Part shown: positions 24,528 to 32,088 of the stretch, piece by piece
How the letters are laid out: each line of letters starts with the position of its first letter
How positions within the stretch are numbered: position 1 is the stretch's first letter
NCBI GenBank assembly: GCA_019348255.1
Contig: JAHWJU010000009.1
Location: forward strand, 1-35,131
DNA from: Actinomycetota bacterium
GTDB taxonomy: Bacteria; Actinomycetota; Acidimicrobiia; Acidimicrobiales; CADCTF01
Direction of reading: 5' to 3'
Length of the DNA: 35,131 nt
The notes under the pieces: model-generated
What the model saw: only the letters and a program-made list of their open reading frames with translations
The model's database searches: none
Told to the model about the DNA's origin: nothing
Translations under genes and position numbers: made by a program

Positions 24528-25626
24528 AGCAGCGTGAGGTCAGCCGGCCGGGCGCCCACAAGCCCCAGAAGCCGCCGAGCACGCGGCGGGTCTTGTCGGT
24601 CCACTCCAGGCAATCAGGAGGGCTGATCCGCCGGACCACCTGGCGGATGCCCCCCTCGTGGACGGCGTAGCCGGCCCAGACCCCCGGATAGTCCTTGGTC
24701 GAGCCCACCTCGGTGACAGCCAGGCCATGGCGGGTGCCACGCCGGTTGCGGTGGGTGTGGCCGAAGCTGACGAGGGTGGCGGCATTGGCCTGCGCCAGCG
24801 CCCTCAGCAACGGCTCACCCTCGCGCTTGGGAATCCCGGCCGGGTACCTGGACGGGACCGGCAACCGGTCCACGTAGTGGTGGAGGGTCACGAAGGCGGC
24901 GCCGGCACTCCCGCCGGCCAGTCGCACCAGCGTCTCGCGCTGGTGGCGGTCGACTGCGCCCACCGAGCGCCTCGGTACCGCCGAGTGGCCCACGACCAAC
25001 CTGATCCCGGGGAGGTCGACCGACACCGGCTCGTCCGCCAGGGAGATGCCGTGCCGGGCCAGGATGTCGCGTCCGTCGGTGCTCTTGGGCACCACGTCGT
25101 GGTTGCCCAGCGTGGTGTGCACCGGCATCGGGGCGTCCCCCAGCACCTCGGCCACCAACTCCCATTGCTTCGGCCGTCCCGAGAACGTGAGGTCGCCCTT
25201 CACCACCAGCGCCTGCGCCCCCCAGGCGGTGGCCTCGGCGATGGCGGCGCGGGCGCACCTGACGGCGTAGCCCTCTTCCGGCGGTCGGGCCGGCAACTCC
25301 CTCACGCGGGGCAGAAGCCCGAAGCCTCTCTCACCGATGTGGAGGTCGCTGATGGTGGCGAACCGGCAGAGCAGCCGCCCCGGAGGTGGGGCCAGGGTCC
25401 GGAAGGCTCCGACGGCTCGGCGCCCTCCGCCCACCTCCAGCACCAGCTCGTGGTCCGTGTCGGGCGCCAGGCCCTCGAGCACCACCGCGCCGGGACGGCC
25501 CGGATCGTGGTGGTCGAGCGGCACGTCGACGTCACCGGCCCGAAGCACGGCGTCAGCCGCCGGCAGGCTCTCCCAGCAGACCTGGACCGCGGTGTCTTCG
25601 ACGCCGAAGACACCGATCTCGTTCAC
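24484..25626 (-). CDS. Metallophosphoesterase (calcineurin-like)
   Basis: ISDLHIGE, VVKGDLTFSG, TTLGNHD, FVTLHHY, LVSFGHTHRNR metallophosphoesterase motifs, preceded by a small beta-sandwich-like N-terminal region. Confidence 0.9.
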   Translation of the reverse strand: MNEIGVFGVEDTAVQVCWESLPAADAVLRAGDVDVPLDHHDPGRPGAVVLEGLAPDTDHELVLEVGGGRRAVGAFRTLAPPPGRLLCRFATISDLHIGERGFGLLPRVRELPARPPEEGYAVRCARAAIAEATAWGAQALVVKGDLTFSGRPKQWELVAEVLGDAPMPVHTTLGNHDVVPKSTDGRDILARHGISLADEPVSVDLPGIRLVVGHSAVPRRSVGAVDRHQRETLVRLAGGSAGAAFVTLHHYVDRLPVPSRYPAGIPKREGEPLLRALAQANAATLVSFGHTHRNRRGTRHGLAVTEVGSTKDYPGVWAGYAVHEGGIRQVVRRISPPDCLEWTDKTRRVLGGFWGLWAPGRLTSRCFSHQWPAHPGSAQR

Positions 25627-28232
25627 GCCTCCGCGAACAACAAGGGCAGTCGCTCCTGCTCACGCTGGAGGAACGCGACGTTGACGTCGAGGCGTTCGAG
25701 CGTCTGCTCCACCGTCTTCTGGCCGGCTACGACCGGGTGCTCGGTGAGGAAGGCGCGGATCTCACCGGCCAGTTCGGGGGTGGCCAGCAGGCTGACGCTT
25801 TCGATCATCCGGGCGTGACTGTTGTGGGGGAACCGCTCGAGCAGGCTGTCCCAACGCTCGGTGACCCACTGCCACGCCATCGGACCGTGGGCGAGGTTGG
25901 CCAGTGCCGAGTTGATGAGAAACGGCGCGTTCTGGGTGCGCACCTCGGTCACGGCCAGTTCCAGTGTCCGGCGCAAGAGAGCCTCGTCGTGGAACGAGGC
26001 CAGTGCCATCAGGTAGCGCACCTCCTCCTGCGGGGTGGCCGGGTGCCGGTAGCGCTCGAGGAACTCGTGGTAGTCGGACTCGCCCCCGATGTGGGCCGTG
26101 ATGTGGATGATGGACGGCACGATGTCGGCGTCGACCGAGGCCCGGTCCTGCAGGTACGAACGGTGCAGCTCCGCCGCCCGCCGCTGGACGGCCGGATCGG
26201 CACCGATGGTGCCGAGGCGGTCGAGCAGCAGAGCCCGCAGCGTCGGCGTCTTCTCGCTCTCCCCGGGCTGGCTGGTCCACCCCACCCGCTCGAAGGCGGG
26301 GCCGACCAGGCGGCGGAGGAAGCCCTGCAGGGCGGGACGGTCCTCTTCGCCCAGCCCCCGCTCGACCAGGCCGAAGGGCCCCAGCACCGCCGCCCACACG
26401 GTGGGGTCGGGCTCGTCGCCGAACAGGCGGACAAGGTCGATGAAGTCCTGAAGCGGCGCCAGGCCGGAGAGCACCGAGGCCCAGGTGTCGCTGACGAGGT
26501 TGAAGCGCTCCACCGCCGAGAGCTGCGCGGCGGCAAGGTCCCCGGTCAGGCCCCGCAGCTGATCGGGCGCGTAGCGGGTCCGGTAGAAGCCCGACCCCCC
26601 GGCATTGGCCACCAGCCAGTCGAGCTTGCCCTCCCCGAAGTCGATCACGGCGGCCTGGTCCGCAAGGAGGAGCTTGCGGGTGGCGACGGTGCCGTCGACA
26701 CTGGCTCGCAGGATCACCGGCACCTGCCATCTGGCGTCGGCATCGTCGGGGGCGGCCAGGTAACGGAACCGGCGCTGGCTCAGGGTCACGCCGCCTCCTC
26801 CCGGCGGGCGGGCGTCCTCGCCGGCCCCGGTTTCTGCCTCGTCGCTGTCGACGGTCACGATGGGGTGTCCGCCCTGGAAGATCCACGAGTCCATGGTCGA
26901 GCGCACCGGCTCTCCCGTCGCCTCCTCGATGGCGTCCCAGAGATCTGTCGTCTCGGTGTTGCCGTAGGCGTGCTTCTGCATGTACAGCCGGATGCCGGAG
27001 CGGAAGGCATCAGCGCCCAGGTACTGCTCGAGCATGCGGACCACCGACGCCCCCTTCTGATAGGTCAGGACGTCGAACATGCCCTCGGCCTCCTCGGGTG
27101 CGGCGACCGGGAACTCCACCGGCCGGGTGGCCCGCATCCCGTCGGTGTTCATGGCCGAGGCCCTCCCGGTGGAGAAGCTGACCCACCGCTCCCACTCGGG
27201 GCGGAAGGCGTCGACCGCCAACAGCTCCATGAACGTCGCGAACGCCTCGTTCAGCCAGATGCCGTTCCACCACTTCATGGTCACCAGGTCGCCGAACCAC
27301 ATGTGGGCGATCTCGTGGGCGACCACGTCGGCCACCCGCTCGAGATCTAGACGGCTCGCCGCCTCCCGGTCCACGAGCAAGGCAGTCTCGCGGAAGGTCA
27401 CCGCGCCGAGGTTCTCCATGGCGCCGAAGGCGAAGTCGGGCAGGGCGATCAGGTCGAGCTTCTCGGCTGGGTAGGGGATCCCGAAGTAGTCGGTGAAGAA
27501 GCGCAGGGAGTGCGCCCCGACCTCGAGCGCGAACGCGCTCAGGTGGGCCTTGCCCGGCACGTAGGCGACGCGCAACGGCGTCCCGTCCACGTCCACCGGA
27601 GCCGTCAGCTCGAGGGGACCGACCACGAAGGCCACGAGGTAGGTCGACATCACCATGGTGTCCGCGAACGTCACCGCCCGCTTGCCGTCCATCGGCACCT
27701 CGCGCACCACCGGACCGTTGGAGATGGCGACCAGACCTTCCTCCACCACCAGCGTCACCGCGAACACCGCCTTGAAATCCGGCTCGTCCCAGCAGGGGAA
27801 GGCACGGCGGGCGTCGGTGGACTCGAACTGCGTGGTGGCGATGACCCGCTCCACACCGTCGTCGCCGGTGTAGGTGCTGCGGTAGAAGCCGGCCAACTTG
27901 TCGTTGAGAACGCCGCTGAAGCGCAGTTCGATCTGCCACTCACCGGGCTGGGCCGTGCCCTGCAGGGCGACCGTCACCCGTTCCCGCTCGGGGTCGAGGC
28001 GGACGTCAGCGGCGAGTGTGGTTCCACCGGAGCGAACGACGGCGCCCTGGATCTCGAGGTCGGCGCCGTTGAGCACGATCTCGCTGACGGGCTCGAGCAC
28101 GTCGACCGTCACCGTCTCCACGCCGTCGAAGCGGAATGCCCGGAGGTCGGGCGCCAGCGTCAGCTCGTAGTGCCGGGGGATGACGCTGCGAGGCAGACGG
28201 TACGTCTGCTCGTCAGGGACGAGATCGGACAT
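25623..28232 (-). CDS. pepN: M1 family aminopeptidase N
   Basis: 869 aa; GAMENLGAVTFRE, VVAHEIAHMWFGDLVTMKWWNGIWLNEAFATFME zinc metallopeptidase motif; ERAP1-like C-terminal region. Confidence 0.96.
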   Translation of the reverse strand: MSDLVPDEQTYRLPRSVIPRHYELTLAPDLRAFRFDGVETVTVDVLEPVSEIVLNGADLEIQGAVVRSGGTTLAADVRLDPERERVTVALQGTAQPGEWQIELRFSGVLNDKLAGFYRSTYTGDDGVERVIATTQFESTDARRAFPCWDEPDFKAVFAVTLVVEEGLVAISNGPVVREVPMDGKRAVTFADTMVMSTYLVAFVVGPLELTAPVDVDGTPLRVAYVPGKAHLSAFALEVGAHSLRFFTDYFGIPYPAEKLDLIALPDFAFGAMENLGAVTFRETALLVDREAASRLDLERVADVVAHEIAHMWFGDLVTMKWWNGIWLNEAFATFMELLAVDAFRPEWERWVSFSTGRASAMNTDGMRATRPVEFPVAAPEEAEGMFDVLTYQKGASVVRMLEQYLGADAFRSGIRLYMQKHAYGNTETTDLWDAIEEATGEPVRSTMDSWIFQGGHPIVTVDSDEAETGAGEDARPPGGGGVTLSQRRFRYLAAPDDADARWQVPVILRASVDGTVATRKLLLADQAAVIDFGEGKLDWLVANAGGSGFYRTRYAPDQLRGLTGDLAAAQLSAVERFNLVSDTWASVLSGLAPLQDFIDLVRLFGDEPDPTVWAAVLGPFGLVERGLGEEDRPALQGFLRRLVGPAFERVGWTSQPGESEKTPTLRALLLDRLGTIGADPAVQRRAAELHRSYLQDRASVDADIVPSIIHITAHIGGESDYHEFLERYRHPATPQEEVRYLMALASFHDEALLRRTLELAVTEVRTQNAPFLINSALANLAHGPMAWQWVTERWDSLLERFPHNSHARMIESVSLLATPELAGEIRAFLTEHPVVAGQKTVEQTLERLDVNVAFLQREQERLPLLFAEA

Positions 28233-29782: not shown

Positions 29783-29831
29783 CCGGTGGTGTTACAGCTT
29801 GTGGTCTCGGGGATCCCACTGGAGGCGGGTC

Positions 29832-30878
29832 ATGGCGTGGCGCATCGAGGCAATAGACACCGAGACGGCTCCCGAACACGAGCTGCGGATGCTCTACGAC
29901 CTCCACCTGGAGATCCACGACGAGCTGTGGTCCGAGGACCCCCGCGAGCCCTTCGAGCTGTGGGAGAAGGAGATCCGGGAGACGCCGTCGTGGCGCAGGA
30001 CGCTGCGGTGGGCGGTCTGGAGTGACGACCGGGCACGGGCCCTCGCCCTGGCCACGCTCTCGATGGGCTTCACCGAGACCAACCGGCACCTGGCCGATTT
30101 CGACGTCACGGTGCGCAGAGAGGTGCGCCGCCGAGGCGCCGGCCTGCAGCTGCTCGCGCCGGTGGTGGCGGCGGCCGAGGCCGAGGGGCGGACGTTGCTG
30201 GAAGCCGGCGCCCCCACCGACACCCCCGGAACCGCGTTCCTCGACGCCGTGGGAGCAGAGACGAAGATCGTCGAGCGCAAGAGCCGCATGGTGGTGGCCG
30301 ACGTCGACAGAGCCATGTTGGAGCTCTGGGTGGAGCGGGCTGCCGAGCGGGCCGCCGGCTACTCCCTGCTGGCCTGGGACGGCCCGGTGCCCGAGGAGTA
30401 CCTGGAGCGCTTCGTCGACCTCCAAATGGTCATGAACACCGCCCCCCGCGACGACCGGGAGGTGGACGACTGGGTGCACACGCCGCAGCGCCAGCGGGAG
30501 AACGAAGAGCGCTACGCCCGCAAGGGCGAGACGTGGTGGACGCTGGTCGCCCGCCACGACGCCACCGACGGGCTGGTGGGCTACACCGAGTTCGTCTTCC
30601 CGCCCCACGATCCGACAGTGGTCTGGCAGGAGGCGACGGTGGTGGATCCCACCCATCGCGACCGGGGCATCGGCCGCTGGCTCAAGGCCGTCAACTGCCT
30701 GCGTCTGATGGACGAGCGTCCCGACGTCCGCTACGTGGACACCTGGAACGCCTTCAGCAACGCGCCGATGCTCGGCATCAACAACGCCATGGGCTTCCAG
30801 GTGGTCAAGTCCTACAGCGACTACCAGATCCCCACCGAGAGGCTGGCCGCGGCGCTCAAGGAGCGCCGGGGCAGCTGA
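29832..30878 (+). CDS. Tandem GNAT-domain N-acetyltransferase
   Basis: Two GNAT-like halves; TLSMGFTETNRHLADFDVTVRREVRRRGAGLQLLAPVVAAAEAEGRTLL and VGYTEFVFPPHDPTVVWQEATVVDPTHRDRGIGRWLKAVNCLRLMDERPDVRYVDTWNAFSNAPMLGINNAMGFQ. ATG 29832 with GGAGGCGG upstream. Confidence 0.87.
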   Translation: MAWRIEAIDTETAPEHELRMLYDLHLEIHDELWSEDPREPFELWEKEIRETPSWRRTLRWAVWSDDRARALALATLSMGFTETNRHLADFDVTVRREVRRRGAGLQLLAPVVAAAEAEGRTLLEAGAPTDTPGTAFLDAVGAETKIVERKSRMVVADVDRAMLELWVERAAERAAGYSLLAWDGPVPEEYLERFVDLQMVMNTAPRDDREVDDWVHTPQRQRENEERYARKGETWWTLVARHDATDGLVGYTEFVFPPHDPTVVWQEATVVDPTHRDRGIGRWLKAVNCLRLMDERPDVRYVDTWNAFSNAPMLGINNAMGFQVVKSYSDYQIPTERLAAALKERRGS

Positions 30879-30884
30879 CGCCGG

Positions 30885-30974
30885 CTACTTCTTCGAGCCC
30901 CGGTTGGGCTTGCGGCCGTGGTTGGCCTTCTTGCGCCGGGCGCGGTTCTTGGCCTTCACGGTGCGCTTGGACAT
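30885..30974 (-). CDS. 29-aa highly basic small protein, putative actinobacterial ribosomal protein bL37 homologue
   Basis: Translated by hand: MSKRTVKAKNRARRKKANHGRKPNRGSKK*. The KANHGRKPN core resembles the KANHGKRPN-type end of mycobacterial bL37 (recalled, not searched). Below the size cutoff of the ORF track. Confidence 0.68.
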   Translation of the reverse strand: MSKRTVKAKNRARRKKANHGRKPNRGSKK

Positions 30975-30980
30975 GTGAGC

Positions 30981-31003
30981 AGGCTACCGGGCGCCGGTAG
31001 CTT
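30981..31003. promoter_or_regulatory. Candidate symmetric divergent promoter between bL37-like ORF and ychF
   Basis: TAGCTT (30998-31003) lies 8 nt before the ychF ATG, and TAGCCT (complement of 30981-30986) lies 6 nt before the bL37-like ATG; 8-bp inverted repeat GCTACCGG-GCG-CCGGTAGC at 30983-31001. Confidence 0.45.
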
Positions 31004-31011
31004 GGGACCAG

Positions 31012-32088
31012 ATGGAACGATTCGGGTTCGTCGGCCTCCCCAACGCCGGCAAGTCGTCACTCTTCAATGCGCTGGCCGGAGGCGGTGCGCTGGCCGCCCC
31101 GTTCCCGTTCGCGACCAAGGACCCGAACGTCGGCCGGGCCAAGGTCCCCGACCCCCGCCTCGACGCGCTGGCGGTGATGTCGAGGTCCAAGAACGTCGTC
31201 CACGCCGCCTGCGAGTTCATGGACATCGGAGGCCTGGTCGAGGGGGCGAGCAGGGGAGAGGGGTTGGGCAACCGGTTCCTGGCCGGCATCCGCGAAGTCG
31301 ACACCATCGTCTATGTCCTGCGGGCCTTCGAGGACGACGACGTCACCGGCCCCTCGGACCCGCTCGAGCACCTCGCCGTCGTCGAGACCGAGCTGTGCCT
31401 CGCCGACCTGGCCACCATCGACGCCCAGCTGCCCCGCAAGGACAAGCAGTCCCGGCTCGACAAGTCACTGGTGGCCGAGGTGGCCGCCCTCGGCGCAGCC
31501 CGGGCGGTGCTGGACCAGGGCACGCCGCTGTACCGCTCGAAGCTCGGCGCCGAGATGCGGGAGCTGTTGAAGCCGGCGTTCCTGCTCACGAACAAGCCGG
31601 TGCTGGCCGTGGTGAACGTGGGCGAGGACGACCTGGAGCGGGCCGACGAGAAGGCCAAGCCCGTGGTCGACCACCTGGAGGGCTTCGCGGAGGTCCTTCC
31701 CATGTGCGTGCAGCTCGAGGCCGAGGCGGCCCAGCTGGCCGAGGACGAGCGGGGCGAGATGCTCGACGCACTGGGCCTGGGGGAGGGGGCGCTGCCCCGG
31801 GTCGTCCACGCCGCCTACCACCTCCTCGGGCGCCGCACCTTCCTCACCACCGGCGACAAGGAGAGCCGGGCCTGGACCTTCCGGGCCGGGGCCAAGGCCC
31901 CCGAGTGCGCCGGCGTGATCCACTCCGACCTCCAGCGCGGCTTCATCCGGGCGGAGGTGATCCGCTGGGACGAGCTTCTCCAACTGGGATCCTGGGCCAA
32001 GGCCCGGGAGGTGGGACGGCTGCGGGTGGAGGGCAAGGACTACGAGGTGGTCGATGGGGACGTGCTCGAGATCCGCTTCAGCGTCTAG
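31012..32088 (+). CDS. ychF: Redox-regulated ATPase YchF (Obg-family)
   Basis: MERFGFVGLPNAGKSSLFNALAGG; DIGGLVEGASRGEGLGNRFLAGIREVD; LLTNKPVLAVVNVGE; C-terminal TGS-like HSDLQRGFIRAEVIRWDELL. Confidence 0.96.
   Translation: MERFGFVGLPNAGKSSLFNALAGGGALAAPFPFATKDPNVGRAKVPDPRLDALAVMSRSKNVVHAACEFMDIGGLVEGASRGEGLGNRFLAGIREVDTIVYVLRAFEDDDVTGPSDPLEHLAVVETELCLADLATIDAQLPRKDKQSRLDKSLVAEVAALGAARAVLDQGTPLYRSKLGAEMRELLKPAFLLTNKPVLAVVNVGEDDLERADEKAKPVVDHLEGFAEVLPMCVQLEAEAAQLAEDERGEMLDALGLGEGALPRVVHAAYHLLGRRTFLTTGDKESRAWTFRAGAKAPECAGVIHSDLQRGFIRAEVIRWDELLQLGSWAKAREVGRLRVEGKDYEVVDGDVLEIRFSV

Follow-up and report, generated by a model that had tools for sequence, protein, structure and literature searches.

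The reading frame at positions 30885-30974 on the minus strand of the window, the window being the whole 35,131-nucleotide stretch of DNA that was analysed, is a real, conserved gene that is under strong purifying selection in exactly this frame. On the evidence of sequence comparison we hold, with a probability of about 95%, that it encodes ribosomal protein bL37 of an uncultured Acidimicrobiales bacterium (class Acidimicrobiia, phylum Actinomycetota), and we infer that its product resides on the ribosome. The protein belongs to a known family of ribosomal proteins, of which it is a divergent but ordinary representative, and the gene is not a new kind of gene. The source genome (G000) is a draft assembly of 2.99 Mb, comprising 314 contigs and approximately 93% complete. 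The features to which we refer below are the following.

30885-30974, minus strand: bL37 homologue, ATG at 30974, stop codon TAG, 29 amino acids plus stop (match to NF047428, conservation, dN/dS)
30903-30929, minus strand: conserved core KANHGRKPN, residues 16-24 (alignment A1)
30888-30902, minus strand: C-terminal tail RGSKK, residues 25-29, extending past the 24-residue structural references (alignment)
29799-30878, plus strand: GNAT-family acetyltransferase gene, convergent neighbour, start codon uncertain (Pfam PF00583)
31012-32088, plus strand: ychF, ribosome-associated P-loop NTPase family, divergent neighbour (Pfam PF06071, PF01926)
30981-30986, minus strand: predicted bL37 -10 box (TAGCCT); distance from the start of the box to the ATG, 12 nt
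30998-31003, plus strand: predicted ychF -10 box (TAGCTT); distance from the start of the box to the ATG at 31012, 14 nt
30980-31004, no strand: near-perfect inverted repeat CAGGCTACCGG-gcg-CCGGTAGCTTG, made by the two back-to-back -10 boxes and their promoters

A conserved gene between the GNAT gene and ychF

Translation of the minus strand over 30885-30974 yields MSKRTVKAKNRARRKKANHGRKPNRGSKK followed by a stop codon, which matches exactly the peptide, stop and strand given in the initial annotation. Its remark that about half of the residues are lysine or arginine also holds (14 of 29, or 48%), as does the 6-nt gap that it placed between this frame and the convergent GNAT gene, whose stop codon ends at 30878 while that of the bL37 frame occupies 30885-30887 in plus-strand coordinates. 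A GNAT-family gene adjoins the bL37 gene in two further loci (L027 and L029). The ychF gene on the other side is 83.5% identical to that of the closest named record, the uncultured Acidimicrobiales bacterium AVDCRST_MAG50 (L035).

With a length of only 29 codons in a GC-rich window, where short ORFs are frequent, the frame could conceivably be an untranslated one that happens to stay open in the interval from the GNAT gene to the promoter of ychF. Against this stands, first, the breadth of its conservation, which the initial annotation had proposed to check in related genomes: the peptide was matched at E <= 0.01 in 53 of 60 Acidimicrobiales genomes, each sampled from a different genus and the genome of origin, which carries a single copy, being included. 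The 108 homologues collected (103 distinct) are 26-29 amino acids long and start with ATG in 102 cases and GTG in six; both the start codon and the -10 box in front of it are conserved. Second, in the comparison of substitutions that the same annotation had proposed, synonymous changes dominate over nonsynonymous ones. Pooled over 45 non-overlapping sister pairs, pS was 0.315 and pN 0.048, corresponding to a dN/dS of about 0.12, and pS exceeded pN in every one of the 45 pairs; over the 25 codons compared, seven synonymous changes and no amino-acid replacement separate the copy in the window from its nearest relative. The ratio pN/pS was 0.15 in the bL37 frame as opposed to 0.45-3.6 when the same calculation was applied to the other five frames, none of which shows selection of such strength. 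Since the purifying selection is thus specific to the frame, we regard a chance frame as already refuted and give it practically no weight.

Assignment to bL37

The sole NCBIfam match of the peptide is NF047428 (50S ribosomal protein bL37; E 8.3e-5, 22.7 bits), with residues 1-24 falling on positions 1-23 of the 24 positions of the profile, and a Pfam search with the 29-residue peptide returned no match. NF047428 is described as a bL37 equivalog model with a curated cut-off of 30 bits, which the peptide itself does not reach. Among its relatives, the cut-off was exceeded in 17 of the 60 genomes of the order, each time at a place that the window peptide also matched, and all 13 Acidimicrobiales sequences of alignment A2 matched the model. 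When the PDB was searched with the single peptide, four bL37 sequences, of the M. smegmatis, M. tuberculosis and C. acnes type, were the only ones found, and a profile of 13 Acidimicrobiales sequences containing no mycobacterial row recovered the same four together with the 22-residue chain 7sfr_v, which is named "peptide"; the best E-value obtained with this profile was 0.0019, for C. acnes bL37.

The shortfall in score, together with the large bias corrections that HMMER applies to peptides of this kind, speaks for another possibility: a small basic peptide, RNA-binding or ribosomal, that is not bL37 and resembles it only by virtue of its K/R-rich composition. E-values carry little weight for short basic peptides, and a shuffle control was therefore run with a model derived from the three structural bL37 sequences. 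The peptide scores 28.8 bits against it and only three of 20,000 residue shuffles do as well; the match therefore does not merely reflect basic composition. In alignment A1, which includes M. smegmatis, the residues K16, A17, N18, H19, G20, P23 and N24 are invariant (ANHGRKPN being residues 17-24), and, judged by this alignment, the homology is carried by the common non-basic motif ANHG..PN. Given in addition that relatives within the order pass the bL37 cut-off at the very places matched by the peptide, and that the peptide matches no other family in Pfam or NCBIfam, we consider resemblance by composition very improbable. The assignment to bL37 is further in keeping with size and composition (29 residues and 48% K/R, compared with 24 residues in the structures), and the initial reading of the frame as a bL37 homologue is supported by the conserved frame, the excess of synonymous changes and the lone NCBIfam match alike; none of the three outcomes that it had named as refuting came about.

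The peptide is alignable with bL37 of M. smegmatis and M. tuberculosis (5o60 chain 3 and 7kgb chain v; NF047428) from Met1 through the PN that closes ANHGxxPN. The two share M1, K3, K7, K16, A17, N18, H19, G20, P23 and N24 and are both about half basic, and the identity of the peptide to the M. smegmatis sequence in A1 is 50%; it differs in an extra residue before ANHG, in having RK rather than KR before PN, and in the tail RGSKK. The best PDB match, C. acnes bL37 (8crx chain V), has the core RxRARRKK-ANHGxxPN in common with the peptide, but is 24 residues long, has no long tail and is off by one residue in register before ANHG. The initial annotation had described the protein as slightly extended at both ends, which is correct for the C-terminus, where five residues follow those of the 24-residue references, but not for the N-terminus, since MAFFT places Met1 of the peptide on Met1 of mycobacterial bL37; there is instead one additional internal residue, the exact place of which before ANHG is ambiguous. 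Within the order, some forms have the extra residue and others lack it, and nearly all sequences of the order carry a short tail after PN, typically GRG or GRNS.

Another small ribosomal protein, bS22 (AURKAIP1/COX24 type, the 33-residue M. smegmatis type), was also considered and rejected, as the window peptide has no match to such a family. A search of its own assembly for bS22 returned nothing at the bL37 peptide, and separate bS22 genes were found in 18 of the 21 genomes searched. As an aside, no bS22 gene was found in the source genome itself, although those 18 genomes include G001 from the same family; because the draft is incomplete, this absence may reflect an assembly gap.

Predicted expression signals and the ychF promoter

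The pattern TANNNT, beginning 12-17 nt ahead of the start codon and unaccompanied by a Shine-Dalgarno sequence, is present in 97 of the 103 distinct homologues, whereas TANNNT at this distance is seen for 2.1% of the other ATG triplets in the same loci; of the other six homologues, five carry a Shine-Dalgarno motif and one lacks both signals. A -10 box at this fixed distance predicts that the transcript begins at the start codon itself, and most mRNAs of bL37 homologues are thus probably leaderless. In the window, the bL37 homologue would have a promoter of its own, arranged back to back with that of ychF, and give rise to a leaderless mRNA; ychF appears to be leaderless as well. We infer that the two promoters are too close to each other for two polymerases to bind simultaneously. 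A generic scan reported neither a sigma-70 promoter with both hexamers nor an intrinsic terminator. The divergent ychF lies within 200 nt in nearly half of the homologous loci (48 of 108, a number in which a few contigs are represented twice); the pairing is therefore common, not universal.

Four loci lacking a -10 box at the leaderless distance (L011, L012, L013 and L023) have GGAGG 9-10 nt ahead of the start codon, with -10-like boxes lying farther upstream, a pattern that suggests switches between leaderless and led transcripts. Elsewhere in the window, the gene for an M1-type aminopeptidase (25623-28232, minus strand) is preceded by a TAACCT box, 14 nt upstream of its ATG, and is a further candidate for leaderless expression.

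Probable placement on the ribosome

The bL37 of M. smegmatis and C. acnes consists of a short helix and a loop, both buried beneath the 5S rRNA tip in a pocket of the 23S rRNA helices H39, H40, H72 and H89; it contacts H89 and has been proposed to stabilise that part of the peptidyl transferase centre (PMC5876184, PMC10085706). By analogy with these solved relatives, the N-terminal basic segment of the window peptide would form the short helix and its ANHGRKPN segment the loop, both would be buried among H39, H40, H72, H89 and the 5S rRNA tip, and the protein may thereby brace H89 and hence the peptidyl transferase centre.

In Borreliella burgdorferi, the same pocket of the 50S subunit is filled by an N-terminal extension of uL30 (PMC10618245), that is, by a part of uL30 and not by a separate protein. 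In contrast, the N-terminus of uL30 is short in the genome of the window and in its relatives, with no long extension able to fill the pocket, which is consistent with, though no proof of, a pocket that is available to bL37. The small protein CLaSP of Coxiella burnetii overlaps the position of bL37 on the ribosome (PMC13392368); it was reported to have no substantial sequence or structural similarity to bL37 (PMC13392368), and may have arisen by convergence.

C. acnes bL37 inhibited Gram-positive bacteria in disk assays (PMC10085706) and has been proposed to act as a released antimicrobial peptide. For the lineage studied here we deem a main role off the ribosome, of this or another kind, exceedingly improbable, given that the peptide has, by inspection, no signal peptide, and that its wide conservation and frequent pairing with ychF are as expected of a housekeeping gene. 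Moreover, basic peptides that are added externally often inhibit bacteria. As for what might set the ribosomal bL37 of this lineage apart, it is conceivable, albeit in our opinion rather unlikely, that the extra residue and the tail would make contacts absent from mycobacterial bL37 in the pocket close to H89 and the 5S tip, and that the back-to-back leaderless promoters would couple the supply of bL37 to that of ychF.

Distribution and annotation

bL37 has been reported as restricted to Actinomycetota (PMC5876184), and the lineage of the window lies inside this phylum. Among the genomes of the phylum that were sampled, NF047428 matched 31 of 149, and the A1 profile matched 70 of 298, its matches outside the order arising partly by construction because A1 holds one mycobacterial row. 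Only Corynebacterium glutamicum was matched at E <= 0.001 among 14 named control genomes. Weak matches in genomes that we presume to be Streptomyces-like were set aside, as the two models hit different places in one of them (G228). No homologue was detected in the nearly complete order genomes G004, G016, G021, G059 and G254, so that bL37 is either not strictly universal in the order or present there in divergent copies or in assembly gaps. Neither a diverged copy beside ychF, which was sought in the homologue-less genomes of the order and the class, nor an extended uL30 that could serve as a substitute in homologue-less genomes was seen.

These findings extend bL37, known from the ribosome structures of mycobacteria and Cutibacterium, to an environmental order of actinobacteria, in which most of the genomes sampled carry it. 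The homologue in the window, with its 29 codons, no Shine-Dalgarno sequence and a score below the cut-off, is likely to escape both gene finders and the current family model. Approximately two thirds of the homologues in the order (36 of 53) fall under the NF047428 cut-off, and a broader model would therefore repair the annotation of a ribosomal protein that is placed near the peptidyl transferase centre.

The 80 loci with named records are nearly all assigned to Acidimicrobiales, Acidimicrobiia or unspecified actinobacteria. Three records titled Proteobacteria, Acidobacteria and Bifidobacterium breve (L066, L106 and L113) carry Acidimicrobiales-like bL37 loci and are probably mislabelled or mixed MAGs.
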